Shown here one piece after another: positions 23,872 to 38,885 of a DNA stretch of 64,000 nucleotides. How positions within the stretch are numbered: the stretch's first letter is position 1; each line of letters opens with the position of its first letter. This stretch comes from Hymenobacter sp. BT559 (lineage in GTDB: Bacteria > Bacteroidota > Bacteroidia > Cytophagales > Hymenobacteraceae), in NCBI RefSeq assembly GCF_016427535.1, contig NZ_JAELXV010000001.1:1-64000 (forward strand). The letters run 5' to 3'. The notes under the pieces were generated by a model. The model worked only from the letters and a program-made list of their open reading frames with translations. It had not been told where the DNA came from and searched no databases. Both the position numbers and the translations under genes were made by a program.

Positions 23872-23874
23872 AGG

Positions 23875-24342: not shown

Positions 24343-24378
24343 AGGGCGGAGGGAAAGCGGGACTTTAAAGAAACGACT

Positions 24379-24393
24379 ACTAATTACATTAGT
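24379..24393 (-). promoter_or_regulatory. Palindrome upstream of umuDC, possible SOS operator
   Basis: ACTAAT, TAC, ATTAGT: a perfect 6-bp inverted repeat 37 nt before the umuD start in AT-rich DNA. A longer palindrome with the same AT-TAC-AT core occurs at 28545-28563. LexA operators vary among Bacteroidota, so the assignment is inference. The rest of 24394-24631 shows no supported gene. Confidence 0.45.
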
Positions 24394-24631
24394 TTATAAA
24401 TAATAAAAGTTATATACTTTAAAAGCATTGACAGTCAGATAAAAATGTTTTCGTATTGCTGTTATGTTTAGTCAAGATGCTGCTCCGGACATAGGTGAGT
24501 ACATGAGCCGATAGTACTGGGAAGGTTAAAAGCCGCGAGGTTGGAGACGAAAGGATAACCCAGCGGTAACTTGCTACACGGAGCGGCTTCGGATTTTTGT
24601 AGCCCTATCCTTACCCTTTTCCTTTTTCCTT

Positions 24632-25543
24632 GTGAAGCATTTACTTACTCGCATTGGGTCGCTGACCCTACTAGCGGCATTGGCCGTTTCCTGCGCCAAA
24701 AATGAGAGCGTTGCCCCAGCCTCGCCGTCCACGCCGCTCGCCAAGACGAGTACGACCTCGGCCACACTGGCCACCGCCGCGGCTACCCGGGATAACAACC
24801 TCGCCCTAGGGAACCCCAGCGGCGCTGTGGCCAGTACCTCGTACCCGAGCAACTACTTGCTGACCAAGTCCCAGTACACGCTAAGCTACAATCGTGACCA
24901 GGGCAAACCCAACTGGGTGTCGTGGCACTTGAGCAGCGCCTGGCAGGGCAGCACGGCCCGGCAGGATAATTTCTCCCCCGATGCCACCCTTCCATCAGGC
25001 TGGTACCGAGTGACCACCAGCGACTACACGGGTTACGGCTTCGACCGAGGACATAACTGCCCCTCAGCGGACCGCACGGGCTCGGTAGCTGATAACTCCG
25101 CGACCTTTCTAATGACCAACATGATGCCTCAGGCCTCAGTCAATAACCAGCAGACCTGGGCTGGCCTGGAGAACTACTGTCGTACGCTCGTGGCGGCCGG
25201 CAACGAACTCTACATTATCTGTGGGAGCTACGGCAAAGGCGGCACGGGCGTCAACGGGTACGCAACAACGATTGCCGGGGGCAAAGTGACCGTACCGTCT
25301 AACTGCTGGAAAGTCGTGGTCGTGCTGTCTGAAGGGAGCAGTGATGTATCACGTATCACGACCAGCACCCGCGTAATTGCCATCAATACGCCCAACACCA
25401 CTTCCATTGGCACGGCCTGGGGCGCCTATCGCACCAGCGTTGACGCCATTGAAGCCGCCACGGGCTTAGACCTGCTCTCGGCTCTACCACTGAGCATTCA
25501 GAATACGTTGGAAGCGAAGACGGATACGGGAGCAACCAATTAA
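24632..25543 (+). CDS. Secreted DNA/RNA non-specific endonuclease, lipoprotein
   Basis: 303 aa from GTG 24632. Signal peptide with lipobox LAVSC, so Cys21 is probably lipidated. A Ser/Thr/Ala linker (about 25-55) leads to a beta-beta-alpha-metal nuclease. YGFDRGHNCPSADR carries the DRGH motif with catalytic His141, and ASVNNQQTWAGLE has the metal-binding Asn. It should degrade nucleic acids outside the cell, for feeding or against incoming DNA. The signal peptide start MKHLLTR recurs in a fragment at 27276. Confidence 0.92.
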   Translation: MKHLLTRIGSLTLLAALAVSCAKNESVAPASPSTPLAKTSTTSATLATAAATRDNNLALGNPSGAVASTSYPSNYLLTKSQYTLSYNRDQGKPNWVSWHLSSAWQGSTARQDNFSPDATLPSGWYRVTTSDYTGYGFDRGHNCPSADRTGSVADNSATFLMTNMMPQASVNNQQTWAGLENYCRTLVAAGNELYIICGSYGKGGTGVNGYATTIAGGKVTVPSNCWKVVVVLSEGSSDVSRITTSTRVIAINTPNTTSIGTAWGAYRTSVDAIEAATGLDLLSALPLSIQNTLEAKTDTGATN

Positions 25544-25567
25544 ATAGTAGCCTCCTACTTTGGGAAT

Positions 25568-25600
25568 AAAAAAGGCCTCGCTCAGCAGCGGGGCTTTTTT
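25568..25600. terminator. Terminator hairpin
   Basis: AAAAAAGGCCTCGCT and AGCAGCGGGGCTTTTTT form an imperfect stem with runs on both sides, between the convergent nuclease gene and the 84-aa family gene. Confidence 0.7.
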
Positions 25601-25853
25601 AGTATTCCGGTAGCCGTACCCCACACGCATAATCCTCCAGCGGCCCACTGCTGACAAAGCTGCGCAGCACTACGGCCTGTCCTTGGCCATCATCAAGACC
25701 GACCTCGACAAAGAACCCACGACCCTCATCCTCGCAGTGGTAGAGGTTGACGCCGCTCTCCTCATCCCAGCGCTGCGCTAGGTAAGTGCCTTGGTGAATA
25801 ACGTAGAGCAGCTGGACGACAGGTGAAAGGCGACAGAAGGAGTAGAGAGTCAT
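25599..25853 (-). CDS. Small protein of the 84-aa element family
   Basis: 84 aa from ATG 25853 (MTLYSFCRLSPVVQLLYVIHQG). The ATG overlaps the stop of the aspartic protease gene as ATGA, so translation is probably coupled. The core (CEDEGRGFFVEVG, AVVLRSFVSSG) matches the other copies. It lacks the downstream membrane microprotein seen after the 20979 copy. Confidence 0.7.
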   Translation of the reverse strand: MTLYSFCRLSPVVQLLYVIHQGTYLAQRWDEESGVNLYHCEDEGRGFFVEVGLDDGQGQAVVLRSFVSSGPLEDYACGVRLPEY

Positions 25854-26794
25854 CGGGAGGGGCGCCGTGGGGTGAGCCAATAGAACTGCTGTCGGCCATA
25901 GTGGAAACTTATCACCCCGCTCTGACTGCTGTGGGCCAAGAATACATAGCCCAGGATACCTTGATAAGGTAAAGCCAGGCCACTAACGGGGCGGGCAAAC
26001 TTGACCAGCATCACAGGTAATTCACGCCAAGCCGTAGGGGGCAGACGCAACTCGGATAAGATGGCCTGCGGGGCTTGCTGGGCGCCGCTGCCCACTCCGG
26101 CGAAGGGCTGGGTACTGCCGAGCAGGCGCGGGCGCAGCTCCGGCGCGAGCTGTTGGACAAAGGCAGCGTCTAGGCTGTTGGACGTGGCCCCCGTGTCTAA
26201 GAGCAAGCGCACCGGCGTTTTGCCGATATAGCCCTGCGCGAGGGGTTTGCCCTGCAGCAGGGTGAAGTGAAGCGAGTCCGTGCGTGTGAAGGGTAGCCGT
26301 TTGGGCGTCTTGCCCGCGCGCAACGGGTAGCAGCTAACCTGCCGGTGGGCATAGTCAATAACTACTTCGTAATCGCGTAGCAATTCGGTGCCAATAAAGC
26401 CCAGCAGGCGCGGGCCCGCAAAGCGGCGCACCTCCATGAGGGACGTCGCCATCGCCTGCAGGCCCGTGTAGTGAGTGGCGCCGAACTGAAAGCTAGTTAC
26501 GCGGAGTCGTTGCACCTCCAACGTACTACCGGCGCCTAGGCCACTGGCTACCGCCCCCTGCAGCTGGCTGGCAAAGGCTGCCCGCTCGACGACTAAGCCG
26601 TAGTTAGAGCCGGTGTCGAGAATGAAGTCTCCGTGCTGCCCGTTTAGCTCTAGATTGCGCAATACTACTAGCCCACCCATTAGGTCGAAGGGTAGGCTCA
26701 CAAACGCTACGGGATGCGTCACCTGGGCGAGGGCCGAGCTGGCCACTAGCACGAAGGTGGAGAGTACTAGTAGAAAACGAAGGCGCATGCTCAC
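25850..26794 (-). CDS. Secreted retropepsin-like aspartic protease
   Basis: 314 aa with a signal peptide (cleavage near SSALAQ). Two retroviral-type active-site motifs are present: FILDTGSN (Asp60) and RLLLDTGATS (Asp200). Two lobes in one chain make it a self-contained clan AA protease, probably periplasmic or lipid-exposed. A second possible ATG lies two codons in. It forms an operon with the 84-aa gene. Confidence 0.85.
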   Translation of the reverse strand: MSMRLRFLLVLSTFVLVASSALAQVTHPVAFVSLPFDLMGGLVVLRNLELNGQHGDFILDTGSNYGLVVERAAFASQLQGAVASGLGAGSTLEVQRLRVTSFQFGATHYTGLQAMATSLMEVRRFAGPRLLGFIGTELLRDYEVVIDYAHRQVSCYPLRAGKTPKRLPFTRTDSLHFTLLQGKPLAQGYIGKTPVRLLLDTGATSNSLDAAFVQQLAPELRPRLLGSTQPFAGVGSGAQQAPQAILSELRLPPTAWRELPVMLVKFARPVSGLALPYQGILGYVFLAHSSQSGVISFHYGRQQFYWLTPRRPSR

Positions 26795-26875
26795 AAAGAA
26801 AAGCCAGGCCAGCTAGTTGCCTAGCGCGACTTAGTTTATGCCAGCACTACCTGTGGTGGGCGGCTCCACATTGCT

Positions 26876-27175
26876 CTAGTGGCTATTGCCAATCGTAGCC
26901 CCGGTATTTGAAGTGCCGCTACTGCCACTCCCGCCGCCGTTCATGCTGGTACCGGTTTCCGTGGTCGAGTTAGGATTATTGGGACCACTTGCAGGCGTGC
27001 TTGTCGCACCTTCGCCGCCTGCATTAGCTGAGTCGGCCATGCCGCCAGTCTGGCTAGCAGTCGATTCACTGCCTGACGCAGTGCTCGGGCTGTTTTCGCT
27101 ACCGCCGCAGCTGCTAAGTGAGAAGCCGCTCAGCAGAGAAGCCGCTAAGAATAAACGAGAAATGGAAAGCTGCAT
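26876..27175 (-). CDS. Ser/Gly-rich small lipoprotein
   Basis: 99 aa. Signal peptide with lipobox SLSSC, then about 75 residues almost entirely Gly, Ser, Thr, Asn and Ala with no predicted fold. A surface-exposed or periplasmic spacer-type lipoprotein. Function unknown. Confidence 0.65.
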   Translation of the reverse strand: MQLSISRLFLAASLLSGFSLSSCGGSENSPSTASGSESTASQTGGMADSANAGGEGATSTPASGPNNPNSTTETGTSMNGGGSGSSGTSNTGATIGNSH

Positions 27176-27275
27176 AAAAGCAAAAGGTTAAGGAGAAGGT
27201 ACCAGTGTAGCGGACTATACGATAATTAACATTTTTTGCCTGTAAGCTCGAGGCTTTATCGTAACCTTTGCATGT

Positions 27276-27341
27276 ATGAAACACTTGCTTACGCGTAGCT
27301 CCGTTCTATTAAGCTTCCTGCTACTGGCCACAGCCTACTAA
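27276..27341 (+). pseudogene. Signal-peptide fragment of a lost lipoprotein gene
   Basis: MKHLLTRSSVLLSFLLLATAY then TAA. The first seven residues equal those of the nuclease at 24632, and a promoter-like CCTTTG lies just upstream, but no mature protein follows. The stretch up to 27495 holds only stops in all frames. Confidence 0.4.
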
Positions 27342-27495
27342 GACTAACGAAGACTGCTTGACCTATTCCTTCTCAATGAAGCACGGTGCCTAGGGGTCGA
27401 ATAAAGCCCCCTACCTACTGCCAAGCCTACTATCACAAACCCAACACAGAAGTATACTGTTAAAAGCCACCTACCGTCCAGCCTAAGTCCCACCT

Positions 27496-27912
27496 ATGTC
27501 TCTTGCCGGCTTCTCGCCTTACTTTGAAAACGCAGCGGTTCGGCTTTCAGCTCACCCCAATGGCATCGCGTTGTTTCAATACCAACCGGGTAAGCGCAGC
27601 TTCACGGACCTGAAAGAAGTATTCGGGCAGTTAGGTAACCTATTACAGCAGCGGGGCTGGCGCACCATTCTCACTGACCAGCGAGAACTAGCGCCCTTTT
27701 CCGAGGAGTCCGCTTGGATTACAGGATTTTGGACTACCTACTTTGCGCAGCATGGAGGTAGCATAGTGGGCGCTGTAATCGCTTCACCCAACGTTTTTGC
27801 TCGCCTGGCCTCTAGTAGCCTGTGGCACAATAATCGGCAGCTTCCTATCTCTTATACAATTTTTGCAGAGGAGGAGCCAGCTGTATCCTGGTTACTAGCG
27901 CAGGTAGAATAA
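27496..27912 (+). CDS. STAS-like hypothetical protein
   Basis: 138 aa. Order of strands and helices like the SpoIIAA/STAS-type proteins at 21518 and 59574: GIALFQYQPGKRS, a helix, TILTDQRELAPFSEES, a helix, GAVIASPN, and a final EEEPAVSWLL. No signal peptide. It is followed 77 nt later by a CheY-like gene on the same strand. Confidence 0.55.
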   Translation: MSLAGFSPYFENAAVRLSAHPNGIALFQYQPGKRSFTDLKEVFGQLGNLLQQRGWRTILTDQRELAPFSEESAWITGFWTTYFAQHGGSIVGAVIASPNVFARLASSSLWHNNRQLPISYTIFAEEEPAVSWLLAQVE

Positions 27913-27989
27913 GTAGTAAACCTAGAAGCATTACAATTGTGTGCCCGATGTAAAACTAACCTGGTGGCTAGCCCTGCGTACGGTAAGCT

Positions 27990-28409
27990 ATGGCAGACAC
28001 TGACGCTACGATTTTACTGGTTGACGATGACGAGCCGACCCGCCTCACCATGCGACGGTGGCTTACGCAACTAAACGTACAGGTCCACATCCTAGAGGCA
28101 GAGGATGGGGAGCAAGCGCTAGCCTCCGTCAAAGCGCACTGCCAGGCTACCACTCACCCGCGCTCGCTGCTAGTGTTGCTGGACCTCAATATGCCCGTGA
28201 TGGACGGGCTAACTTTTCTAGAGCATAAGGCCCATCTACCTCGTGCGTATCAAGAAGCGATGACGGTAGTTGTGATGTCGTCATCGCCGAGTGAGGCTGA
28301 ACTAGAGAAGGCTCGCTCGCTCGCAACGGAGATAAAGCGGAAGCCACTAGACGTACATCAATTACTTAAGTTGATACGCGATTATTTGCCAGATGCGGCA
28401 GTAGCCTAG
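27990..28409 (+). CDS. CheY-like response regulator receiver
   Basis: 139 aa, single receiver domain. Acidic pair in VDDDEP, phosphoacceptor Asp in LLDLNMPVMDG, Ser at the Thr position in VVMSSS, and Lys in IKRKPL. No output domain, so it must act by binding a partner. No histidine kinase is nearby. The outline resembles Rcp1-type regulators that serve phytochrome-like kinases elsewhere. Confidence 0.88.
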   Translation: MADTDATILLVDDDEPTRLTMRRWLTQLNVQVHILEAEDGEQALASVKAHCQATTHPRSLLVLLDLNMPVMDGLTFLEHKAHLPRAYQEAMTVVVMSSSPSEAELEKARSLATEIKRKPLDVHQLLKLIRDYLPDAAVA

Positions 28410-28441
28410 GCTGACCTGTTTTTTTATAAAAAGCCACCTGC

Positions 28442-28480
28442 GGGCGGCGGGTGTCTAGCACCCGGCCGCCCCTTCTTTTT
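28442..28480 (+). terminator. Terminator after the receiver gene
   Basis: GGGCGGCGGGTG and CACCCGGCCGCCC around a 5-nt loop, followed by CTTCTTTTT. Confidence 0.85.
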
Positions 28481-28544
28481 GCCAGACCTTGCGTAAGCGA
28501 GCAGCGCTCGCGTCAGGATTGGCGACTAGGCAGGCGGTAGGGTC

Positions 28545-28609
28545 AACTTGATTACATCAAGTTCTTGTCAGTAAATCCTGACAATATCAATACCCTTTCG
28601 CTACCTTTG
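28545..28609 (+). promoter_or_regulatory. Two palindromes and a -7 box TACCTTTG
   Basis: A 19-bp palindrome (28545-28563; arms AACTTGAT and ATCAAGTT), a second (28565-28584; arms TTGTCAG and CTGACAA), then TACCTTTG at 28602-28609. The layout is that of a tightly regulated rightward promoter, yet no ATG occurs on the plus strand between it and the terminator at 28848. Confidence 0.5.
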
Positions 28610-28667
28610 CGCGTAAATAAATAAAGAAATAAACAAGGGCCGCACCTCGCGGCACGACCCTTGCAAC

Positions 28668-28805
28668 CTAGTGAACCCAGTGGGCGGCTGCCGTCACAGC
28701 CGTACCGCCCGCCAGAATTGCCCCAATAAGCCAGCGGGCTAGCTTATTAGACATTCGGAGCTTAAGCATAAACTCAAACTCCGACTTCGCGCTGTCCTCT
28801 TTCAT
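28668..28805 (-). CDS. 45-aa single-pass membrane peptide
   Basis: ATG at 28805, TAG at 28668. Charged N-terminal half (MKEDSAKSEFEF, then KLRMSNKLARW) followed by a Gly/Ala-rich membrane helix and the ending AAHWVH. A GC-rich hairpin with a T-rich tail lies right after the stop on this strand. Size and shape recall type I toxins or small phage membrane proteins. No family recognised. Confidence 0.5.
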   Translation of the reverse strand: MKEDSAKSEFEFMLKLRMSNKLARWLIGAILAGGTAVTAAAHWVH

Positions 28806-28847
28806 CTTGATTGGAAGGAAAGGGTTGCTTCAAAACCCCCACTTCTC

Positions 28848-28888
28848 GAAGCCCGACTGTTACCAGCAGTTCGGGCTTCTCTTTTTTT
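28848..28888 (+). terminator. Terminator hairpin
   Basis: GAAGCCCGACTG and CAGTTCGGGCTTC with one bulge, followed by CTTTTTTT. From 28889 to 29199 I see no supported gene; the short open frames there have no coding character. Confidence 0.8.
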
Positions 28889-29199
28889 CAAGAGCTTAGG
28901 GCTGGGGGACAAACCCCAACGCGAGTGCAGCAAAGATAACTAGCCAACAAGGTGGGCAGAGGGCAAATACGTATTTATACGGAATGCCAATTTTGCACAA
29001 TGAGTGTGCACAAATAGGTAAGGACTTGATAATAAGGCATTCATATCCTTTTAAATCTGCGCCCGTTTGATTATCTGGCTTATCTGTCGTATATGTTTGT
29101 TCTGTCCTCACGTTTCATTTTACGGCCGCTGCCTAAGCCACAAAGCCTTGTTAAAGGTCGTGAGTAAGGTAAATTGCTGCCTCACTAAATCCCACTCAA

Positions 29200-29718
29200 A
29201 TGCCAGACTCATCAAGACTCACCGGGGGTTATCGACGCCCAGAAGCTTTGCAGCTCAGTCCAGAGCAGAAGTTTATTGCCTCCCTTAAACGTCTAACCAA
29301 GTCTCAAGAAGGGCTGTCCGCAGCCCAGCAGACGCTCAAGCAAAAGCAGGGGGAAATGAAGAAAAATGACAACCCTCCGGCTGTTATTTCATTCAATACA
29401 GCTTTTGAGGGGCGACAACTTGAAGACGCAACTAAGCAGGCTGAGGAAGAGGTAAAATCTTACGAACAAGATATCGCACTTATAGCTCAAGAGCTAGAGC
29501 AGAACTTATCAAAGGTCGTGCTACAGCGTCTTAATAATTCGCACGGCTACGTAACGGCAAAGGAGGCTGATAATAGCTACTATGCCTTTCTTAAGGTGAA
29601 TGGCAAGCATGTTGTTGTGAGTGCATACAATTTGCAGGCACTAGAGCTAGAGGTGCAGAAGGCTCAGCAGAATGACCAAAATATTATTGGTCGCCGAATG
29701 GGAAATGTGTTTAGCTAA
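29200..29718 (+). CDS. Coiled-coil hypothetical protein
   Basis: 172 aa, hydrophilic. Residues about 20-115 are rich in Lys, Glu, Gln and Leu in coiled-coil spacing; the C-terminal 50 residues (YYAFLKVNGKHVVVSAYNLQALELE) look like a small beta/alpha unit. No signal peptide and no family recognised. A terminator at about 29725-29760 follows. Confidence 0.6.
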   Translation: MPDSSRLTGGYRRPEALQLSPEQKFIASLKRLTKSQEGLSAAQQTLKQKQGEMKKNDNPPAVISFNTAFEGRQLEDATKQAEEEVKSYEQDIALIAQELEQNLSKVVLQRLNNSHGYVTAKEADNSYYAFLKVNGKHVVVSAYNLQALELEVQKAQQNDQNIIGRRMGNVFS

Positions 29719-29724
29719 CCTTAA

Positions 29725-29760
29725 AAGCCCTGCCTCCCACTAGGAGCCGGGGCTTTTTCA
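29725..29760 (+). terminator. Terminator hairpin
   Basis: AAAAGCCCTGCCTC and GAGCCGGGGCTTTTT form an imperfect stem ending in a T-run. Confidence 0.65.
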
Positions 29761-29772
29761 TATCTTGTCTCC

Positions 29773-30099
29773 ATGAAAAAGCCCCTACTAATCACCGGGT
29801 TGCTACTTGTGGCGCTGCTACTGACGAACCCGCACCTAGCAGACCATAAAGAAGCACTGCTTGAAAAGGAGATGCAAGAACTGCCCGCCGCCGGATTAGG
29901 GCTAGATGCTGGCTCTCCACTAGTGGTGGCAAATGTGCGCAGCACCATTGAGCGTAGGGCCGGGCGTAAGGATTACTGGCTATTCTCCTTAACAACTCTC
30001 AACTATAGCGACGCGCTAATTGATAGCGAAGATGGATTGCTCAATAGGACAGTAGGTATCGGTATTCTTGGGCGTGTGTTTCTGTGGAGTAAGATGTAA
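29773..30099 (+). CDS. DUF4359-like small membrane/secreted protein
   Basis: 108 aa. Hydrophobic N-terminal segment (about 4-18) followed by TNPHLADHKEALLEKEM. The second half has RKDYWLFSLTTLN and ends VGIGILGRVFLW, the pattern of DUF4359 proteins as I recall it. Probably anchored by its N-terminus and facing the periplasm. Function unknown. Confidence 0.55.
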   Translation: MKKPLLITGLLLVALLLTNPHLADHKEALLEKEMQELPAAGLGLDAGSPLVVANVRSTIERRAGRKDYWLFSLTTLNYSDALIDSEDGLLNRTVGIGILGRVFLWSKM

Positions 30100-30153
30100 G
30101 ATGAACCCAGAACCTGCCTCCCCGTCAACCAAAACTGGTTAATACAAGCTTTT

Positions 30154-30417
30154 ATGAGAACCTTTCTTAGGATACTATTAATTATCGCATTAATAGGAAA
30201 TTGCGCTTGGTTTCTACATGAGCCAGGTTACGAGCAAGCCATTTCAATCATTAACGCTATTGCCGCATTAATCACACTAGTAGTAGACTCAAATACTAAT
30301 ACGGGTATTCCAAAATATGAGAAGATGTTTACGCAGAACAATAGTAGCAAAGCAACTGGTTACCAAGCGGAAAATATGACTTTCAATCACCATAACGCCA
30401 AGTCACAAGATAGTTAA
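30154..30417 (+). CDS. Small two-helix membrane protein, partner of next gene
   Basis: 87 aa. Two hydrophobic segments (about 4-20 and 30-45), then a polar tail with FTQNNSSKATGYQAENMTF. The following gene, starting 2 nt after this stop, begins with a very similar FTQENSGPGPSYQAESMTF. Sharing this motif between a membrane protein and an adjacent soluble protein suggests they interact or were built by duplication. AT-rich like its partner. Confidence 0.65.
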   Translation: MRTFLRILLIIALIGNCAWFLHEPGYEQAISIINAIAALITLVVDSNTNTGIPKYEKMFTQNNSSKATGYQAENMTFNHHNAKSQDS

Positions 30418-30418
30418 T

Positions 30419-31324
30419 ATGCTCGGCGACAAGGAATTTACCCAAGAGAATAGTGGCCCAGGGCCTAGTTATCAGGCGGAGAGCATGACCTTCGGCTTAT
30501 CCTATGCGGATACGAAGCAAATTGCGCTTGATTTATGGAAAGACAATGCTGTAAAATTATCTCAAGAAGCAGCCCAAACAGCACTAGCTAGAGTTAATGA
30601 ATTTTTAGATTCTTATCTTTTTAAATTAAATGAAATAAATCCAGAATTATTCAATACTTTGAAAGAGCCATCAATTCAAATGGCGCTGTTTAATGCACAA
30701 AGAGATTATGCTAAAGCCAATGACAAGGATTTAGGCAATTTATTAGTTCAGTTGTTAATAGAAAGAGCAAGTAACCAAGAAAGGACACTACTTCAACTTA
30801 CATTGGATGAAAGCTTACTTACTGCTCCAAAGCTCACTCAGAAGCACTTAGATATTTTGACCTTGATTATACTATTAAAGAGGTCGCCATTTGACACAAG
30901 TGAAGAAGGAACCTTAAATACTATTATAAACATAATAGGAACACTATCATCTAGGATATCATCAAATTCACAAGATGTCTGGCATTTAGTTTATTGCAAT
31001 TGCTTAGTGCAGCATGTAGGCATCAATATTGCAATGCCAGAAGGACACGAAGCCATCTCTACCGTTCACAAGTTATGCCCACCTTATTTTACTCCCTTAC
31101 CTAAAGTAGGTAGCGGCGAACTTACCGCAGCAATTAGTGCAAGCAGGGATTTTATTTTGACTAGATGGCCCTCGATGAAATACTTTTTCAATATTTTTTC
31201 TGATTATCGCTTTAATACTCTATATTTAACTAATGTCGGAACAGCATTAGGGGTATCAAATATGAATGCACTCCCTTCTATTTTTGGTAAGCACAAATTT
31301 GATTTGGGTAAATGGATTTATTGA
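30419..31324 (+). CDS. LPO_1073/Vpar_1526-like protein
   Basis: 301 aa, AT-rich against its surroundings. The N-terminus carries the glutamine-tagged motif (SYQAESMTF) followed by GLSYADTKQIALDLWKDNA and a helical region, which matches what I know of the poorly described LPO_1073/Vpar_1526 family. The remainder is mostly helical with no recognised catalytic motif. Such motifs occur in proteins of bacterial conflict systems. With the 87-aa membrane protein directly upstream it forms a compact two-gene cassette. Function inferred only. Confidence 0.6.
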   Translation: MLGDKEFTQENSGPGPSYQAESMTFGLSYADTKQIALDLWKDNAVKLSQEAAQTALARVNEFLDSYLFKLNEINPELFNTLKEPSIQMALFNAQRDYAKANDKDLGNLLVQLLIERASNQERTLLQLTLDESLLTAPKLTQKHLDILTLIILLKRSPFDTSEEGTLNTIINIIGTLSSRISSNSQDVWHLVYCNCLVQHVGINIAMPEGHEAISTVHKLCPPYFTPLPKVGSGELTAAISASRDFILTRWPSMKYFFNIFSDYRFNTLYLTNVGTALGVSNMNALPSIFGKHKFDLGKWIY

Positions 31325-31498
31325 AAAATGACTGAGTGCGGATAATCACCAAAAATTCTACCAGCCCGCTCGCGCCTACCCTAACTAGGCATTTCTCAAA
31401 TCTCACCGGCTGCGCTCCATACATTGTGCAATATGCTTAGAAGGTAGCAACTACCTGCTAATCCCTCCAAAATCCAAACTCCCTGCATACCACTAAAA

Positions 31499-31531
31499 AA
31501 GCCCCCACGGCCATAACCGTAGGGGGTTTTA
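31499..31531. terminator. Terminator hairpin
   Basis: AAAAAAGCCCCCACGG and CCGTAGGGGGTTTT around a short loop, with runs on both sides, between convergent genes. Confidence 0.8.
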
Positions 31532-31533
31532 CT

Positions 31534-31956
31534 TTACGCCACCCGCAATTCCTCCTCCCGGTAGCAGTCCCAGTACCCATCATCAAGCCGATACACTGGC
31601 ACCCGCTGCACTAGGCCCGTAGCCGGGTGCCGCTCCTTGAGGTGCCCGCGCCACACCACGGGGCGGGATTGTTCTTGCGTGATAGGTAAGGCCAGACTAC
31701 CCAGGGCAAAGGTAAAGCCGTCCGAAGCTTGCAGGGCAGGTGCCGTGGGCTCGTCGGCGGGCTTAGTAGCTGGCCCTTCACACGCCTGCTCATGCCAGCC
31801 TAACGGCTCGCCGCAGTGCTGACACACGTCAGGTACTTCATCGGTAAAGCCCAGCGCCGGCTCGGCCGGTAGGTCGGGATACTCTTCTTCGCCTGCGTCC
31901 CAGGCTTGCGTTTGCTCGGCATCGGTGCGCGAGTAGCGGAGTTTATGGGTTGCCAT
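31534..31956 (-). CDS. Hypothetical protein with one zinc-knuckle-like motif
   Basis: 140 aa. CQHCGEPLGWHEQAC near residue 45 could bind one metal through Cys and His. The flanks are acidic; the C-terminal part (VQRVPVYRLDDGYWDCYREEELRVA) looks folded. No family recognised. GC-rich, like the element's replication genes. Confidence 0.55.
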   Translation of the reverse strand: MATHKLRYSRTDAEQTQAWDAGEEEYPDLPAEPALGFTDEVPDVCQHCGEPLGWHEQACEGPATKPADEPTAPALQASDGFTFALGSLALPITQEQSRPVVWRGHLKERHPATGLVQRVPVYRLDDGYWDCYREEELRVA

Positions 31957-32136
31957 ACTACTAAAATAAGTAGTAGGAGTGAGTTGTGACTAAATATGTT
32001 GGGTTGCGAGAGCTATAATGCGCCCTGCTTTTGGGCAAAGTACACTAAAAGTTTAGCTCATAGAAAAGCTCCCGGCCTCAGCTGGTTAGGGGCTTCTACT
32101 TGACCACACTTGGTAAGCATGTGGCACAGGATATAC

Positions 32137-32580
32137 CTATTTATATAAGCTACTGAGTATCATCTGCCGGTTCCTTTTGGGCAATAGGGGCACTAGCTCC
32201 GCCACATAAGCAGGCAATGGGTACCCTGCTTCCAAGGCCGAGAGCGCCTTACGTTCTTGACGGCGGCTATAGCGAGCCTTTCCCATTACGCTGGCTGCCG
32301 CTGCGCTCCCACCGAGCACGACATCAATACCAGACGACCAACCTACTCCGTCGCGAACGACATAGGTAACGCCACTGCTGGCTACCAGCAGCCCGCTGAG
32401 CCCTCCTATAGTACTGTAAAGACGGCCTCGTTTGAACAGCTGATGGACGGCTTGCCGTACGCTATCCGGTAACGAGCTAGTGGTAGCGGCATCGAGAGAA
32501 GCAGATGGGGAGAATGCTTGCGCGGCGGTGCACTCGGCACATGTGAGTACCGTGAGCAAGGGGAAAGCTACGAGTTTCAT
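32137..32580 (-). CDS. Hypothetical secreted or membrane protein
   Basis: 147 aa with a signal-like N-terminus (cleavage near CTAAQA) and two weaker hydrophobic segments (about 57-75 and 83-98). A basic region ARYSRRQERKAL follows. Function unknown. Confidence 0.55.
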   Translation of the reverse strand: MKLVAFPLLTVLTCAECTAAQAFSPSASLDAATTSSLPDSVRQAVHQLFKRGRLYSTIGGLSGLLVASSGVTYVVRDGVGWSSGIDVVLGGSAAAASVMGKARYSRRQERKALSALEAGYPLPAYVAELVPLLPKRNRQMILSSLYK

Positions 32581-32717
32581 GGGACAAGAAAAGGAAGGTG
32601 CGAACTCGGTACCTGCCTATCTATCCAAGCGTTACATGATGGCCAGCAAATAGATTAAGAATTTCGCTATACCGCCAAGCTGTAAAGCTTTTGTTGCATA
32701 ACGACCATTTCATCTCA

Positions 32718-33101
32718 TCACCTCTCAGGCCTAGGGGGCAGACGCCCTTCCATGTAAAAATCCATGTAGGTAAACCGCTGGCCCAACTCGCTATTCCAAA
32801 TGGTAGCCAGCATGCCGCCCCAACTCCGCCAACTGCAGGTCATGAAATGTCCGTCACTCAAAACCGGTACGCCGTTAGGGCTGTACTGGTGCCAGTCCCC
32901 ACCGGCCCACACTTCGTTGTCAACGATAGACTGTCGGATAGCCTCTAGGTGCGCGTGCCATTCTGCAGGATACTGCGCTAAGTAGGCAGACCAGTTTACG
33001 TCAATATTGTCAGTGTCCCCAAAGTCTTCTAAATTGAAGCCCGGTGTATCAGGGGTAATACTATCGTAGCTCTGCCAGGTAACGGTGAGAGAAGGCTTCA
33101 T
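32718..33101 (-). CDS. Hypothetical protein
   Basis: 127 aa from ATG 33101; an upstream ATG at 33146 adds 15 residues that look unrelated. Acidic and Trp-rich (WAGGDWHQYSPNG, CSWRSWGGML). Soluble, no motif recognised. Confidence 0.5.
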   Translation of the reverse strand: MKPSLTVTWQSYDSITPDTPGFNLEDFGDTDNIDVNWSAYLAQYPAEWHAHLEAIRQSIVDNEVWAGGDWHQYSPNGVPVLSDGHFMTCSWRSWGGMLATIWNSELGQRFTYMDFYMEGRLPPRPER

Positions 33102-33159
33102 GCAACTTTGTTCATCAAGGCCATCCAGCAGTAGCAAGGTTTTCACGCTGCCAAGCTAC

Positions 33160-33192
33160 GCCAAAAGGCCCCACCGTTACGGGCGGGGCCTA
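33160..33192 (-). terminator. Terminator hairpin
   Basis: AGGCCCCACCGT and ACGGGCGGGGCCT with a minimal loop, between two minus-strand genes. Confidence 0.6.
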
Positions 33193-33196
33193 GGGC

Positions 33197-33592
33197 TTAA
33201 GCAACTTGTAAAGTCGGCTTTTTGAAGAGTAAAACAAGTGCTAGCATAATCAGTGCTTTCTCGATAAGCACGGGTACTAATTCCTCGGGACGAGTAGCTA
33301 GAAGTTGCATTAACGGATTGGTGAAGATGATGATTGCTGCCACCACATCAAAAAGAAAGCCGGCCAATAATACATACTTAGCCCACTGCTTACCTAGTCT
33401 GATTGCGTAATACAGCAGGCCACGCAGGAGATACACCGTCGTCAGCATGGTAACGGACCCTAGCGTATAAATGCGAGGCGGAGGGTGGGGCAGGTAAGAC
33501 GGTATGAGCAAGGCACCAAATGAAAGCACTAGCGTAGCAAACAGCAGGTTTGAAGCGAGTACGTCGCGTCTACGGTGCGGAGCATTTTCCAT
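33197..33592 (-). CDS. Four-helix membrane protein
   Basis: 131 aa from ATG 33592 (MENAPHRRRDVL). The longer frame from 33733 runs through a hairpin at about 33690-33728 and is unlikely. Four hydrophobic helices at about residues 13-30, 38-60, 70-90 and 103-123. Function unknown. Confidence 0.6.
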   Translation of the reverse strand: MENAPHRRRDVLASNLLFATLVLSFGALLIPSYLPHPPPRIYTLGSVTMLTTVYLLRGLLYYAIRLGKQWAKYVLLAGFLFDVVAAIIIFTNPLMQLLATRPEELVPVLIEKALIMLALVLLFKKPTLQVA

Positions 33593-33748
33593 TAGCACAC
33601 TAGCATGGCGGCAAGTAAGAGTCTTTTCATAGGGCTGCGAAACTATAAACCTTGTTACACAGCGGCTGTGTATAAAATAATGGGACATGAAAAAGCCTAG
33701 CCAGCAGAAGTATTTGCTAGCTAGGCTGATCATCAGAAACTCGGAAAA

Positions 33749-34912
33749 TTATTTTTTAGCAGTCGTACGCTGGTTCCATGTATTGGAAGACCAACGGGCC
33801 TGGCCCCGTTGGTAGATAACTAAGTTACCATCAGGCTGCATCATCATGTAGCTGCCTACCGGATTCCATGTGTTAGTGCTAAAGCGAGATACTGAATTAT
33901 TGTCATACAAGACAAAGTTGCCATCGGCTTGCATTATTGCCTTTCTAATATTTTTGCCCCACGTCCCGGAATTCCAAATACCCCTGTTGCTTCCGTTATA
34001 GATGACTAAATTACCATCGGCTTGTAGTAGTAGCCTATAGCGGCCATTAGAAGAAACTAATGACTCATCGACGTTCAGTAGCTGCCCTTCATACAAACAA
34101 TCCCTGGTACTCGAAAAGGGATAGGTTTGCCCTATAAATGTTTTGTCAGTACTAGATAAAACGGTATTACTAGGAGTGCTAAAGCCATTTGTAGTCAAGC
34201 TTGCCGGAAAAGAATACAGCATAATCGATGCTGGATCGAAACTAGTAAAGTTTGTGGTATTTGAACTAGCCAGGTTTAATACTTGGAGATCTACTTGTTG
34301 GGGAGACCAGCCTTGAGTACGGGCATAAAAATCATATACTACTGGTCTGTTCCATTGAATACCGCCCGTAGGGTTTTGATGTTCGTGCCCAAGACCTACC
34401 GCGTGACCAAATTCGTGTAAGGTCACACGTCTAATTTCCTCGTCTGAGGTAGAAGCATCAAACCACCCAAAGTTCATAGTAGGACTAGCCTGTGCTATTT
34501 GACGGCATCCCTTTCCTACGTATGACCACGAGCCCCCATCATTATTCCATTTGAATGCAATGCGAATGTCGGAGTCCTCCGAGGCAGTAACGTAGCTAAA
34601 ATGTACGTTAGCATGCTGCATCCATTCATTGGCCACCGCCTTCACACGGTTTTGTAGGGTAGGGTCTCCATTCATGAATTTAACCCGAATATTCTCGCTC
34701 GCCATCCAAAAAGTTGATCGCTCCCCAAATGCAGTTGTTCTTTTAGATGAGTCACCTTCTACTTTGGCATAAAGAGCTGTGCATAAGTGTGGATCTGTGT
34801 TATTGCGAACACCCGGTTGAGGAGTATCCGAATCAGCTAGTTCCTTTTTAGAACACGAGGTAAGCGCCAAGCAGCCTGCTGACACAGTAAGGAATAAAAG
34901 TTGTTTCAACAT
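33749..34912 (-). CDS. Astacin-like metalloprotease lipoprotein with B-lectin tail
   Basis: 387 aa from ATG 34912. Signal peptide with lipobox LTSC. The catalytic zinc motif is TLHEFGHAVGLGHEHQNP (HExxHxxGxxHE), the astacin/metzincin form. The C-terminal 115 residues are a bulb-type (mannose-binding) lectin domain with three QxDxNxVxY sites: QADGNLVIY, QADGNFVLY and QPDGNLVIY. A cell-surface protease targeted to glycans. The longer frame from 34987 would hide the lipoprotein signal. About 480 bp upstream carry no gene except the hairpin at 35305. Confidence 0.88.
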   Translation of the reverse strand: MLKQLLFLTVSAGCLALTSCSKKELADSDTPQPGVRNNTDPHLCTALYAKVEGDSSKRTTAFGERSTFWMASENIRVKFMNGDPTLQNRVKAVANEWMQHANVHFSYVTASEDSDIRIAFKWNNDGGSWSYVGKGCRQIAQASPTMNFGWFDASTSDEEIRRVTLHEFGHAVGLGHEHQNPTGGIQWNRPVVYDFYARTQGWSPQQVDLQVLNLASSNTTNFTSFDPASIMLYSFPASLTTNGFSTPSNTVLSSTDKTFIGQTYPFSSTRDCLYEGQLLNVDESLVSSNGRYRLLLQADGNLVIYNGSNRGIWNSGTWGKNIRKAIMQADGNFVLYDNNSVSRFSTNTWNPVGSYMMMQPDGNLVIYQRGQARWSSNTWNQRTTAKK

Positions 34913-35304
34913 GGCTTGAACTAGGTGAGTGTAGCTAATACAGGAGATGAGAAATGAATACTGCCTGAACAGAGAAAGCCTGCGCAAATGACTCTAGATC
35001 TAAGCAGATCCAAAAGGACAAACTGCTTAGTTTTTAGACAGTGTTTTTGATGTATTCGGACTACTCTCTTGATATCACCTTAAGTGCCTGCTTCAAACTT
35101 CATCATATACTCACATTTATAACAAGACAATAGCTATACATAATGCAAATCCAGCAATTTATCAGCTTCCTTTAATTTAAGCATTTTACGACATCGCCCC
35201 GAACTCTCTGGCCCTGCGGCTGGGGGTTCTTTTTCACACCGTCTTCTGCTGGCTAGATATCACGCATTGGAGCGAACGCACTAGCCGTCCGGCTTAGGCA
35301 ATAA

Positions 35305-35330
35305 AAAGCCCTGGCTGGTGGGCCAGGGCT
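35305..35330. terminator. Terminator hairpin in a gene-free stretch
   Basis: AAAAAGCCCTGGC and GCCAGGGCT around TGGTGG. The surrounding 34913-35395 is AT-rich, with no supported gene. Confidence 0.6.
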
Positions 35331-35395
35331 CCTGTTGGTAAAGCGCTGTAATTACAGAGAAAGCTCTTTTAAAATCTGTTAATTATTCGGGTAGA

Positions 35396-35761
35396 TTAGT
35401 AAGCAGCGACCTGTGAAAGCGTCAGGTAATAGATAATAGTATCCCCTGTTGACCGCTCAGGGCGGGCATGATAAGTGCCGCTAAAGCGCACGCGTTTACC
35501 AAGGGGCGTTAGGTCATAGGGGAGAGAGTCACAGAGCAATCCTACATCAACACCACCAATCGTACCGGCTCGGGGGGCAAAGATGGCATAGTTACGGGTG
35601 GCGCGCTCAGCTCCCACGGTGCCGAGCACCCCCGTAACAGACTTGATGGCCGCCCCAGCGTCGGGGCAGTGAGAGACAGGCCCTTTAGGGTCGTCTTGGC
35701 AACGGGCAGCTGTGAGCCCTAGGACGCTGCTAAGTAGGCAGAGGCGTAGGAAGGAATACAT
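35396..35761 (-). CDS. Hypothetical secreted protein
   Basis: 121 aa from ATG 35761 (MYSFLRLCLLSSVLG), giving a clear signal peptide; the longer frame from 35893 does not. Mature part has three Cys and a beta-rich C-terminus (RFSGTYHARPERSTGDTIIYYLTLS). No family recognised. Confidence 0.6.
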   Translation of the reverse strand: MYSFLRLCLLSSVLGLTAARCQDDPKGPVSHCPDAGAAIKSVTGVLGTVGAERATRNYAIFAPRAGTIGGVDVGLLCDSLPYDLTPLGKRVRFSGTYHARPERSTGDTIIYYLTLSQVAAY

Positions 35762-35896
35762 GGCACTTGAGGAGTGAACGTTTGGCGGCATGACCGGTGT
35801 GCCAGGTAAAGGGTTGCATTGGGTGTCGAGCAAAGCACTACTTAGCATCACGTATAAATTCATCAAGCAGGTTGATAGCCGTGAAGCCCACACACA

Positions 35897-35930
35897 AAAG
35901 CCCCGGCTAATATGTCGGGGCTCTTGTGTT
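35897..35930. terminator. Terminator hairpin
   Basis: CAAAAGCCCCGGC and GTCGGGGCTCTTGTG around a short loop, just past the tape measure gene end. Confidence 0.65.
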
Positions 35931-35966
35931 AAAAATTAGGCAATTAGCTGTGTTGGCGAGGCCTAC

Positions 35967-38885
35967 TCAGCGCCTTCCCACCACACGCCCGAGTCGGTCA
36001 GTGTTTAGCGTCAGCACCCCAGCCAGGTTAGGCCCGCTGGCCGTGATTTCGACCTCGTGAGTAAAGACGCTCTGGCCAGTCGGGGTGGCTGCTGCAGGGG
36101 CTAGCGTCGGATTGTAGGGTCGCGTGGAAGAGGCCGCGGACGTATTGAGTCTTCCTCCACTGCTAGCCTGTGTTGAGCTGGTAGGCCGAGAAGAAGAAAC
36201 CGAGGCCGACGCAAACGCGCCGCCAATAGTGAGGGCCGTACCTGCGGCTACCTCCGCCAGGCCCTGGCCAATGTTGCCAATGGCAATGTCTGCCAGACCT
36301 TTCAGAATAACTTGCTTCCCGAACTTCTTGAGGAACTCACCAAACACGCCCAGCAGCCCGTCGACCACGCTTTGCAGCACATCCGCCCCAGTGGCCAGCG
36401 CCGTGCCGATGCTATTGCCAATCGATTCGAGCGCATCAACGGGGAACTGGTTAATCAGCTCCGCCATGTTGGTGTTAAAATCCAGCTGCTGCTGCGTAAT
36501 CTGGTCCTGACCCGCCTGCTGGGCAGCTAAGGCCTTGTCATACTGCTCGCCAATTGTTTCCGCATCAGGGCTGAAGATGCCGTTCAAGTCGGGCTGCAAC
36601 GTCTGGGGCAGTGGCTCGAGCTCCGGTAGTTTTAGTTTAAACTCCGGGATTTGATTCATCTTTTCCGTGCCTTCCAGCACTCGCAGGGCCAGCGTGTCTA
36701 CTTCCTGCGCCAAGCCGCGCAGCTCATTGCGAACGCCCTGCACGGTGCTCCCTAACGGCGAGAAGCCGACTGCCACTAGCGACTTCACCCCCGATTCCAG
36801 AATTTTACTGCGTTCGCCTAGGTAATCATAGTCGGTGCCCAGGGCCCGGCTTAAGTTGTCGTTCAGCTTCAACTCCTCCCGAAGCTTGGCCAGGGCGTCG
36901 CGCATCTTCTGGCCCGCCTCATCTACCCCTTTCACACTCGAAAGGCCGGTAAACTTCTCGCCCAGCTTGTCTACCTCCGTGCTCGATTGCTGCACCACCG
37001 GGGGGATGCCTTTGAGCTGGTCGATGAGTCCGCCCACACCGCGGCGGCTGGCGTAGAGGCTTTCAAGCTTGGCCTGCAAGTCGGTGACTTCTTTGGCCGT
37101 GAGCGAGTAGTACTGGCCGCCCTCATCATCGCCGCTGGCAATGAACTTGACGTGGTTGCCCTGCTCATCCACCTTATTGAGGGCGGCCAGGGTGTTAGCA
37201 ATCTGCCCCTCCAGCTTGCGGTATTCTTCGCGTTGCTTGGTCAGGTCTACCCGGTTGGCCTGGGCCGCAATCTCCTGCTGGCGCTGAATGTAGGCGCGGG
37301 CTTTTTCGGTGTTGATGTCGAGCGCCTTACCGTAGGCGTCGAACTGCGTGACGGTGGTCGGAATCTCCGTCCCGACTTTCTGGATGATGCTGCGTAGCTC
37401 TTCCTGCTCGGCTGCGGTGAGGGTGCTCTTGGCCTTGAGCTCGTCGTAGCGAGCCAGTAGCGGGGTGTAAGTGCTTTGCAGCTGCTTCACCGCCGTTTGT
37501 TGGGCGGTGAAGCGCTGGCTTACTTCCTCTACGCTCTCGCTGGCTTCCGTGGTGTGGGCCACCACGGCGGCCGTAGCGACGCCTAGGGCGGCAAAAGCGG
37601 CTACTACAATGCCCACCGGTCCACTCAGCACGAGGAAGCCAGCTTCGAGCGCCGGCAGGGCCGCGCCTAGGGTGCCCACGGCGACGAGCACCGGGCCAGT
37701 GCCAGCCGCAATGCCAGCCAACGCCACTCCAAATTGCAGTATGGTCGGGTCGGCCTGGGCTAGCTCGCTTGCTAGCTCGGAGCCAGCCTGTGCTAAGTCG
37801 GTGGCGAAGTCGAGCACGCCATTATCGGCAATGGCTTGGCCCAGCCCCTCTACCGAACTTTTGAAGGCCTCGAAAGAGCCCACGAAACCCTGATTGAGAA
37901 TCGCGCCCTGCGAGGCGGCATTGACCTTAGCAATGCTGGCCGCCATCTCATCGAATCCTGCCACCCCATCCTTGGCCAGCAGCAGGGCCGTGCGGATAGA
38001 ATCAGCACCGAAAATCTTGGTACCGAGCGTATTTTTCTGCTGGTCAGATAGGCCCTTGAACGCCTGCTGGAGCTGGCCGGCAATCTCACGCAGCGGGCGC
38101 ATCTTACCCTGCGCGTCAAAGAAGTTGAGCCCAAGCTGCTTGATGGCACCCTCGGCCTCCTTGCTCTGCGGCACGAGGCGCTGCAGAAATGTTTTGAAGC
38201 TGGTGCCCGCATCCGAGCCCGATGAAAAGCCCGACGAGGTGACGCCTAGCGCCGTGTTGAAGTCCTCGAAGTTGACGCCCAACTGCCCGGCCACAGCGCC
38301 CGCCTGACCGAGGGCTTGGCGGTAGTCGTCGATGGCGAACTTACTGGCAATGGTAGTGCCGGTGATGTTGCTTACCAGCCCGGCGGCCTGCTGCGCCGAC
38401 TTGCCAAAGTTGTTCATCACGTCCGTCGTGATGTCGGCCGCCGTGGCGAGCTGGGCGCCGGTGGCCGTGGCCAGGGCGGTGGAGGCGTCGGCCGCGCCGC
38501 CCAGAATCTGAGTAGTACTGAGGCCGTTTTTAGCCAAGCTCTCCAGCGCCTCGGCCGCCTGCACCGAACTGAATTGCAACTTGGGGTCGAGCGCAATGCC
38601 CTGGGCCTTGGCCCGCAGGGATTCCAGCCCGGCACCGGTGGCCTGGGTGGCGGCCTCCACCCGGTTGAAGGCGGCCTGAAAATCGCCCCCCACTTTCAAA
38701 GCCCCCGCGCCGGCCAGTGCCAGCGGGGCGCTCAGGTATTTGGTTAGGCCTTCCCCAACGCTTTTCACCGCTTCGCCAGCCTGCACAAAGCCTTTCAGCT
38801 CCTTGCGAGCTTCAGCCATTGCGGCTTTATAGCCAGAAATTTCGCCGCCTAGAACGACGGAAACAGAGGCAAGAATATCGGTCAT
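35967..38885 (-). CDS. Phage tail tape measure protein
   Basis: 972 aa from ATG 38885 (MTDILASVSVVLGGEISGYKAAMAEARKELKGF). Residues about 60-330 match the TP901-type tape measure core (AFNRVEAATQATG, ALGVTSSGFSSGSDAGTSF). Hydrophobic segments follow at about 390-450, then long coiled coil and a Gly/Ala-rich membrane-like end. It sets tail length in siphophages. Two small chaperone-type genes precede it in the usual order, but no tail tube, baseplate or head genes follow; the next genes are cargo. Confidence 0.88.
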   Translation of the reverse strand: MTDILASVSVVLGGEISGYKAAMAEARKELKGFVQAGEAVKSVGEGLTKYLSAPLALAGAGALKVGGDFQAAFNRVEAATQATGAGLESLRAKAQGIALDPKLQFSSVQAAEALESLAKNGLSTTQILGGAADASTALATATGAQLATAADITTDVMNNFGKSAQQAAGLVSNITGTTIASKFAIDDYRQALGQAGAVAGQLGVNFEDFNTALGVTSSGFSSGSDAGTSFKTFLQRLVPQSKEAEGAIKQLGLNFFDAQGKMRPLREIAGQLQQAFKGLSDQQKNTLGTKIFGADSIRTALLLAKDGVAGFDEMAASIAKVNAASQGAILNQGFVGSFEAFKSSVEGLGQAIADNGVLDFATDLAQAGSELASELAQADPTILQFGVALAGIAAGTGPVLVAVGTLGAALPALEAGFLVLSGPVGIVVAAFAALGVATAAVVAHTTEASESVEEVSQRFTAQQTAVKQLQSTYTPLLARYDELKAKSTLTAAEQEELRSIIQKVGTEIPTTVTQFDAYGKALDINTEKARAYIQRQQEIAAQANRVDLTKQREEYRKLEGQIANTLAALNKVDEQGNHVKFIASGDDEGGQYYSLTAKEVTDLQAKLESLYASRRGVGGLIDQLKGIPPVVQQSSTEVDKLGEKFTGLSSVKGVDEAGQKMRDALAKLREELKLNDNLSRALGTDYDYLGERSKILESGVKSLVAVGFSPLGSTVQGVRNELRGLAQEVDTLALRVLEGTEKMNQIPEFKLKLPELEPLPQTLQPDLNGIFSPDAETIGEQYDKALAAQQAGQDQITQQQLDFNTNMAELINQFPVDALESIGNSIGTALATGADVLQSVVDGLLGVFGEFLKKFGKQVILKGLADIAIGNIGQGLAEVAAGTALTIGGAFASASVSSSRPTSSTQASSGGRLNTSAASSTRPYNPTLAPAAATPTGQSVFTHEVEITASGPNLAGVLTLNTDRLGRVVGRR

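Follow-up and report, generated by a model that had tools for sequence, protein, structure and literature searches.

A covarying terminal motif shared by a small membrane protein and LPO_1073 family proteins suggests a possible two-gene signalling module on mobile elements

The primary paper on bacterial amyloid signalling sequences (BASS), with the Bell and NOD-like receptor (NLR) proteins that bear them, is said to be Dyrka 2020. In BASS pairs the effector is described as carrying a C-terminal motif of 20–40 residues beside a receptor with an N-terminal copy, the genes being adjacent or overlapping; effectors with a hydrophobic membrane helix are reported, and some pairs were found by local alignment of neighbouring proteins (PMC7889193, PMC12261475, PMC8086366, PMC9815663). 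In the fungal HET-S/NWD2 and bacterial Bell/NLR systems, the activated receptor is described as templating an amyloid fold onto a membrane killer (PMC9815663, PMC7889193). A second precedent is offered by effector-associated domains (EADs), small non-enzymatic modules present on the proteins of two adjacent genes, whose neighbouring copies are closest to each other and for which homotypic coupling of effector and core has been proposed (Kaur 2020, PMC7159879; EAD10 in PMC8195603). Here we describe a pair of adjacent genes, for a small membrane protein and a protein of the LPO_1073/Vpar_1526 family, in a 64,000-nucleotide stretch of the Hymenobacter sp. BT559 genome (contig NZ_JAELXV010000001.1, positions 1 to 64,000; this whole stretch is hereafter the window). 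We suggest that the pair may be a homotypic sensor–effector module carried on mobile elements, resembling BASS or EAD coupling and working without an NLR protein (probability about 0.4).

The initial annotation of the window had described an AT-rich cassette of two genes 1 nt apart, encoding an 87-amino-acid (aa) protein with two membrane helices and a 301-aa LPO_1073-like protein. These particulars were borne out by the open reading frames (ORFs), with one base between the stop of the first gene and the start of the second, by family and structure models, and by base composition (GC content 0.365 for the cassette vs 0.545 for the whole surrounding element). By its profile match the 301-aa protein is a full-length member of the LPO_1073/Vpar_1526 family (NF045477, E 7.5e-56, 189.6 bits against a cut-off of 45, model positions 1–257 of 257), and it also matches phrog_19542 in PHROG (E 3.2e-15). 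The small protein had no Pfam or NCBIfam family above cut-off and a weak match to phrog_27656 (E 0.0028), which its counterpart in Escherichia coli matches at E 1.9e-52. Its hydrophobic segments cover residues 1–22 and 28–47, where AlphaFold2 placed helices (2–22 and 26–47; mean predicted local distance difference test score, pLDDT, 65.5), followed by a low-confidence tail (blocks of 42–48). The LPO_1073 protein was modelled as a helical body (mean pLDDT 70.6; hydrophobicity peak 1.09) with residues 1–25 below 50. Both motif copies fall in these low-confidence ends.

The likeness of the two ends, residues 56–77 of the small protein and 4–25 of the LPO_1073 protein in the optimal local alignment, was not equalled by any of 1000 shuffles of either protein, and among 404 other ORFs of at least 40 aa in the window the two motifs are mutual best matches (67 vs next best scores of 38 and 34). 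The stretches that the initial annotation had quoted as the end of one protein and the beginning of the other are present, with 12 of 19 residues identical, but the small protein continues for ten residues past the motif. Identical degenerate residues are specified by different codons at six of 12 positions in the window pair and at 73 of 112 across 12 of the 15 intact pairs described below (Pedobacter, Marinomonas and Marinobacterium excluded; a raw count, without a random-codon expectation), so the likeness looks to have been kept at the protein level rather than to be a fresh DNA repeat.

Loci of the LPO_1073 family were collected from genomes, plasmids, phages and viral contigs and reduced to 21 distinct ones by merging repeats (L001/L027/L044, L007/L022/L035, L008/L031/L043, the E. 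coli copies and others; L049 and L050 are one locus). A 58-aa sub-threshold fragment in an Aeromonas genome (L046), perhaps the other end of the cut gene at L028, was excluded from the counts. A small membrane-protein gene with a motif-like tail stands directly upstream in 16 of the 21 loci, intact in 15 and frameshifted in one; of the others, one is uncertain and four lack both motif and partner. The condition under which the initial annotation would have been refuted, absence of the small gene beside LPO_1073 genes elsewhere, thus does not hold, and the four loci without a partner lack the motif as well. In the 15 intact loci the small gene lies upstream of or overlaps the LPO_1073 gene (gaps of −56 to +14 nt, from longest-ORF starts), and its product (60–93 aa) has one or two hydrophobic segments and a tail matching the N-terminus of the LPO_1073 protein. 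Where copies came within its reach, the motif was called by a profile that had many of these copies in its training set; the window and Pantoea were called from the pairwise score, and the Pedobacter LPO_1073 copy and Treponema by eye.

The intact pairs come from the window, Hymenobacter CA2-7, a Bacteroidota genome (G345), Pedobacter, Bacillus, E. coli, Shewanella, Marinomonas, Marinobacterium, a Shewanella-class genome (G680), a Pantoea plasmid, a Syntrophobacterales metagenome-assembled genome (MAG), Micromonospora, a P2-like viral contig (L014) and a human-gut phage contig (L021), hosts that we take to span several phyla. L021 has an intact small gene next to a short LPO_1073 frame of 172 aa; in the Aeromonas locus (L028) the small gene is frameshifted and the LPO_1073 start kept. 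The uncertain locus, in Treponema (L026, 5986–7618), lies inside a type I restriction–modification locus and has no upstream partner but a downstream gene whose product has an asparagine/glutamine-rich N-terminus and then a membrane helix. Neither motif nor partner was seen in a MAG, a Parcubacteria MAG, L048 and L049/L050. The LPO_1073 protein of L048 has a hydrophobic, glycine-rich N-terminus, and the absence of its partner is less certain because a masked stretch lies upstream. The L049/L050 protein, from a Bacillus-phylum sample (L049 1492–3669, L050 256–2433; 725 aa), begins with a membrane segment, continues with a long, charged linker and has its LPO_1073 domain at the C-terminus; by this layout it is a cis version, in which a membrane segment is fused to LPO_1073 without the motif.

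The family is sparsely distributed: it was found in two of 99 relatives and two of 395 Bacteroidota (both including the genome of the window), in two of 369 genomes of the Shewanella class and four of 299 of the Bacillus phylum (each including the seed genome), and seven of 5426 E. coli genomes matched, six of them with at least 80% of the pair. Five other members used as queries against viral contigs, phages, plasmids and E. coli gave no new locus.

Each of the 15 small proteins contains one hydrophobic segment or two, and around the end of the last, lysine plus arginine at least equal aspartate plus glutamate; by the positive-inside rule this charge pattern is predicted to put the motif tail in the cytosol. 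Asparagine, glutamine, glycine and serine make up 44.5% of the motif regions, compared with 21.4% of LPO_1073 outside them, and proline is scarce (0.9% vs 3.2%). A hydrophobic–glutamine–hydrophobic/small step occurs in 21 of 30 copies. In the small protein of the gut phage contig (L021, 1215–1496), a second stretch resembles the motif weakly (6.8 bits) and possibly by chance. It recalls HET-s, whose effector side carries two repeats.

Considered pair by pair, the motif copies beat shuffles at the 1% level in eight of 15 loci and at 5% in 12. When the tails of all small proteins were scored against the heads of all LPO_1073 proteins from the 15 intact pairs (L026 from Treponema and L028 from Aeromonas excluded), matched combinations averaged 43.3 vs 31.0 for mismatched ones. 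After removal of row and column means, none of 20 000 permutations reached the observed covariation (z 5.1), and none of 5000 did so in any run that left out one locus (z 3.9 to 5.5). As controls, the small tails scored against LPO_1073 stretches behind the motif gave a flat result (9887/20 000 and 3435/20 000), and composition-shuffled tails showed no covariation (mean z 0.46, maximum 2.65 in 50 runs, vs 5.1). Both copies of the window pair diverge from the family consensus, yet they are the best matched of all, as would be expected if each copy has to fit its partner.

Profiles of one side also detect the other. A profile built from the other small-protein tails placed the locus's own LPO_1073 protein ahead of about 1150 unrelated ORFs in 11 of 15 loci (E < 0.01 in six), and the converse profile of LPO_1073 heads ranked the own small protein first in ten (E < 0.01 in nine). 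Across whole genomes the matches are few. A profile of one-helix partners gave full-length matches in two of 274 Shewanella-class genomes, both LPO_1073 carriers, in which it also detected the N-terminal LPO_1073 motif (E 0.001 and 0.0017); four other genomes matched in the helix part only. A 24-residue motif profile gave one strong match in 143 Shewanella-class genomes (E 2.8e-10), in an LPO_1073 carrier whose LPO_1073-side copy, that of Shewanella, scored E 0.013, along with two partial, chance-like matches in other genomes (E 0.017 and 0.032). In 158 Bacteroidota it listed only the small-protein copy of the window and not the LPO_1073 copy, and a motif profile including that small-protein copy found it genome-wide at E 1e-8 and nothing else. 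These profiles contain copies from the genomes searched, and the informative point is that no other strong matches appeared; since the motif profile scores LPO_1073-side copies poorly, this specificity holds mainly for the small-protein copies. The membrane helix of the one-helix partners, NKEW-(I/L)-FSG, also begins other proteins without the motif in further genomes (L053 1495–2202, L054 913–1596) and is, by its appearance there, a reusable membrane segment.

In the window the cassette is cargo of a phage-like element (Table 1). A 27-bp sequence that recurs exactly at 17945 and 58066, inside a 344-bp repeat of 80% identity, bounds the element at the transfer-messenger RNA (tmRNA) gene (17588–17957); primase-like and exonuclease genes are encoded as well.

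Table 1. Features of the cassette and of the element that carries it, in window coordinates.
Feature	Position	Strand	Remarks
Small membrane-protein gene	30154..30417	+	87 aa; ORF call; two hydrophobic helices, then C-terminal tail predicted disordered
LPO_1073/Vpar_1526 family gene	30419..31324	+	301 aa; predicted helical, without membrane-like segment; proposed sensor
C-terminal motif copy (small protein residues 56–77)	30319..30384	+	Local alignment to LPO_1073 residues 4–25, score 67
N-terminal motif copy (LPO_1073 residues 4–25)	30428..30493	+	Local alignment; predicted disordered
Phage-like element, about 40 kb	17945..58066		Integrated at tmRNA gene 3' end; flanking repeats; cassette is cargo
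Tyrosine integrase of element	56645..57868	-	PF00589 E 1.8e-12; PHROG integrase E 3e-23
Tail tape-measure protein of element	35967..38927	-	PF10145 E 2.7e-45; phrog_1533 E 1.5e-78

In E. coli, five intact copies were examined among the six places that have the pair (WP_000687980.1 with WP_000490525.1), and all occupy the interval from the replication endonuclease gene to the portal gene of a P2 prophage; in a sixth P2 slot examined (H9; L006 3873–5084) an IS5-like element occupies the place of the pair, of which 84 bases are left. This gpA–gpQ slot has been described as an antiviral hotspot (Rousset 2022, PMC9122126; Vassallo 2022, PMC9519451). Because the neighbouring cargo differs in one of these prophages (H8), the pair appears to travel as a cassette of its own, and the lysis genes (holin, lysozyme, Rz-like) stand elsewhere. 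The LPO_1073 gene of L014, whose product is 25% identical to the E. coli one, lies between the GPA and portal genes of another P2-like phage.

Elsewhere, Pfam confirmed neighbours of several mobile or defence-related kinds: portal and integrase (Bacillus), terminase (Pedobacter), transposase (Micromonospora), serine recombinase (Parcubacteria), integrase (Marinobacterium, G680 and the gut phage contig, with a fragment in G345), type I restriction–modification (Treponema), type III restriction–modification two bases upstream (L030), Abi_alpha immediately before the pair in Hymenobacter CA2-7 (PF14337, E 1.8e-22) and Abi_C in Marinomonas. Neighbours with mobile-element or defence names were found at 12 of 17 distinct loci, a raw count that is no measure of enrichment; it covers the window and the loci from genome-set searches (the viral, phage, plasmid and E. 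coli collections being excluded), with neighbours picked by eye and flanks of unequal length (about 1.5 kb for L003, L047, L048 and L049/L050).

Three further observations concern the surroundings. Homologous stretches of 80–85% identity recur at the two ends of the element (17945–18286/58066–58395, 20891–21107/59321–59538, 21553–21958/59610–60012 and 22529–23351/60787–61610), as if two related elements, or an element and a remnant, lay in tandem at the tmRNA gene. Just downstream of the attachment repeats are two AT-rich orphan genes (18358–19485, GC 0.37, 375 aa; 58420–59241, GC 0.36, 273 aa) with no Pfam match at E 0.001, possibly further cargo. In the E. coli P2 hotspot, three reverse-strand genes of 227, 359 and 333 aa adjoin the pair (L005 4945–7695; also L076, L077 and L078); they had no Pfam match over cut-off, are replaced by other genes in L079 and make up a candidate for a separate system.

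The pair is very probably a functional unit, and the correspondence of the motif copies indicates that its two proteins are probably coupled homotypically, motif to motif, an estimate lowered slightly because Treponema and one Pedobacter copy were judged by eye. The recurring pairing and covarying motifs thus support the homotypic link in the motif-linked pair of the initial annotation; binding at a motif interface, amyloid character, the sensor and effector roles, membrane killing and the anti-phage role are what we infer, so that the initial interpretation is supported in part. On the homotypic-module reading, the LPO_1073 core would be held inactive until a phage-related trigger, whereupon it would oligomerise and gather its N-terminal motifs into a beta-arch (amyloid-type) nucleus. 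This nucleus might recruit and template the matching tails of the membrane protein, whose clustered helices could permeabilise or depolarise the inner membrane and so stop the infected cell; prophages would carry the module against competing phages. We regard a role in conflict or phage defence as reasonably likely and that of the small protein as a membrane effector as slightly favoured, while an amyloid-type rather than an ordinary association of the motifs falls a little short of even odds.

A number of observations weigh against this reading. The motif copies of L014, Pedobacter and Marinobacterium are not beyond shuffles at 5%, covariation is no longer significant once the five best pairs are removed (1721/20 000), and the membrane part of the small proteins gives a mild signal of its own against the LPO_1073 head (143/20 000). 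Leave-one-out profiles of the other copies miss the window pair in both directions, and its LPO_1073 copy has two prolines in mid-motif. In Treponema, the likeness between LPO_1073 and the downstream protein was seen by eye only, the best alignment lying elsewhere and being reached by 345–402 of 1000 shuffles, and the 725-aa L049/L050 proteins do not resemble mobile defence genes. In three of the 15 LPO_1073 proteins (L001/L027, L024 and L047), a hydrophobic 19-residue peak (1.84–2.15) at about residues 149–181 is possibly a membrane segment, so the second partner may not be wholly cytosolic at every locus. The G-(I,V)-Q-(I,V)-G core described for RHIM and the fungal PP motif (PMC7885112) is shared by few copies, an [IV]Q[IVL]G tetrad occurring in three of 30. 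No convincing model for either protein was found in PADLOC-DB 2.0.0, where the best match for LPO_1073 was PDC-S47 (E 9.4e-5; E up to 0.01 in five of 17 members) and the best among three small proteins scanned had E 0.017. The literature searched yielded neither the term LPO_1073 nor an experiment on the family, an unlabelled earlier listing being possible, and Vpar_1526 appears in one report, where a table of the outer-membrane proteome lists it without characterisation (PMC5491611).

Simpler uses of the same two genes have to be considered. The small protein might do no more than anchor LPO_1073 at the inner membrane, where LPO_1073 would itself sense and act, the motif being an ordinary association tag. 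The cis fusion in L049/L050 and the hydrophobic N-terminus in L048 suggest that membrane attachment within the LPO_1073 chain can stand in for the partner, and the small proteins have only 60–93 aa; such a static tether would need no identical motif on both sides covarying pair by pair, and the homotypic matching, which is typical of templating or polymerising adaptors (RHIM, HET-s, death-fold systems), counts against it, so that we think it unlikely. The cis fusion also speaks against a toxin–antitoxin pair, in which a small hydrophobic toxin would be neutralised by LPO_1073 through the motif, for stability of the element or for abortive infection. With the small gene first, the genes tightly coupled or overlapping, the distribution scattered and, in Aeromonas, the putative toxin frameshifted while the LPO_1073 start is kept, there is some support for this arrangement, but antitoxins seldom copy the motif of their own toxin and LPO_1073 (about 280–360 aa) is large for one; it seems to us distinctly unlikely.

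A holin-like protein with its regulator, or a pair acting in superinfection exclusion at the membrane without cell death, would account for the one or two short membrane helices, the phage loci and a sub-threshold Hol_Tox match (E 0.76). We consider it quite improbable, given that the P2 prophages keep their lysis genes elsewhere and that other loci lie beside integrases or behind restriction–modification genes, some without any phage gene seen. As for chance or low-complexity resemblance, or a recent tandem duplication of DNA, the asparagine/glutamine/glycine/serine-rich motif and the three pairs of 15 that do not pass shuffles at 5% speak for it, and it is largely refuted, to the point of being extremely improbable, by the 0/1000 shuffles in the window, the recurrence in 16 of 21 loci, the differing codons and the flat shuffled-tail control.

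Taken to its furthest, the homotypic-module reading would make the pair a prion-like (amyloid-templating), NLR-free death switch on temperate phages and mobile elements of unicellular bacteria including E. coli, in which LPO_1073 proteins would be phage sensors of a class not recognised before and the killer a minimal membrane protein of one or two helices; we hold this full version to be rather doubtful. If it is true, each locus has a signalling code private to it in its matched motif, a family that so far has no more than a name gains a function, and motif-coded immune signalling extends to unicellular bacteria and phages. A 2021 review names signalling amyloids in NLR-independent bacterial and fungal pathways as a key question, searches so far having been biased to NLR and executor architectures (PMC7889193). 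The LPO_1073 pair is a concrete and small candidate for such signalling, consisting of two short genes in the E. coli P2 slot for antiviral cargo, and own versus foreign motifs provide a built-in test of specificity. Should the motif be an ordinary binding tag, this would still be a new two-part membrane system.

Relationships to described families were sought in several ways. Scanned against Pfam-A, 17 LPO_1073 members gave no match to NACHT, NB-ARC or repeat families at E values up to 0.1; one member matches the RecD2 helix-hairpin-helix family (E 3.1e-6) and one weakly matches Abi_alpha (PF14337, E 5.4e-4). A relation to Abi_alpha, suspected from this match and a similar order of segments, was unsupported by hhalign (E 0.069, probability 0.8%). 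Foldseek of the LPO_1073 model against PDB and viral libraries gave no match at E ≤ 0.001; in a structural alignment with 284 chains the best Z was 7.0 over 92 residues (an origin recognition complex chain), and NLRP2, NLRP7 and a plant NLR stood at Z 4.2 to 4.8, all at chance level for helical proteins and unused. The motif profile found a single unrelated chain in PDB (E 0.85), and thus no homology to solved amyloids. The Pfam scan of 13 small proteins gave no family over cut-off and no RHIM family; one of the 13 came nearest to EAD10 (PF19954), at 15.3 bits (E 0.021) against a cut-off of 24.1; EAD10, Hol_Tox and Cap15 membrane helices were sub-threshold matches only and were not adopted. 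Some validated systems of the P4/P2 hotspots are described as pairing an enzyme with a membrane protein, and the term LPO is absent from the main texts of the two reports, the pair being possibly among the 169 arrangements of Rousset's Table S5B (PMC9122126, PMC9519451).

Set beside the systems described at the outset, the LPO_1073 pair shares with BASS and HET-S/NWD2 the gene order, the C-terminal motif followed by the N-terminal one, and adjacent or overlapping genes, and the same short motif on the C-terminus of one protein and the N-terminus of its neighbour is found in the window pair and, covarying, across the 15 intact pairs. Whereas the BASS receptor is an NLR protein (NACHT or NB-ARC with repeats), LPO_1073 has no detected NLR or nucleoside triphosphatase (NTPase) domain, and whereas the BASS effector carries Bell, the partner consists of one or two membrane helices and a tail with no Bell domain detected (no Bell model was identified among the libraries). 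We therefore do not file the pair as BASS, the architectural half of the definition being present and the NLR half absent. Unlike BASS, the pair has hosts that include unicellular bacteria and phages, as in the P2 prophages of E. coli. It resembles EADs in that its motif, too, is duplicated on the products of adjacent genes; EADs are domains tied to NTPase-centred systems, whereas here the unit is a short motif predicted to be disordered, with no NTPase found. By analogy, then, the LPO_1073 pair may work like BASS.

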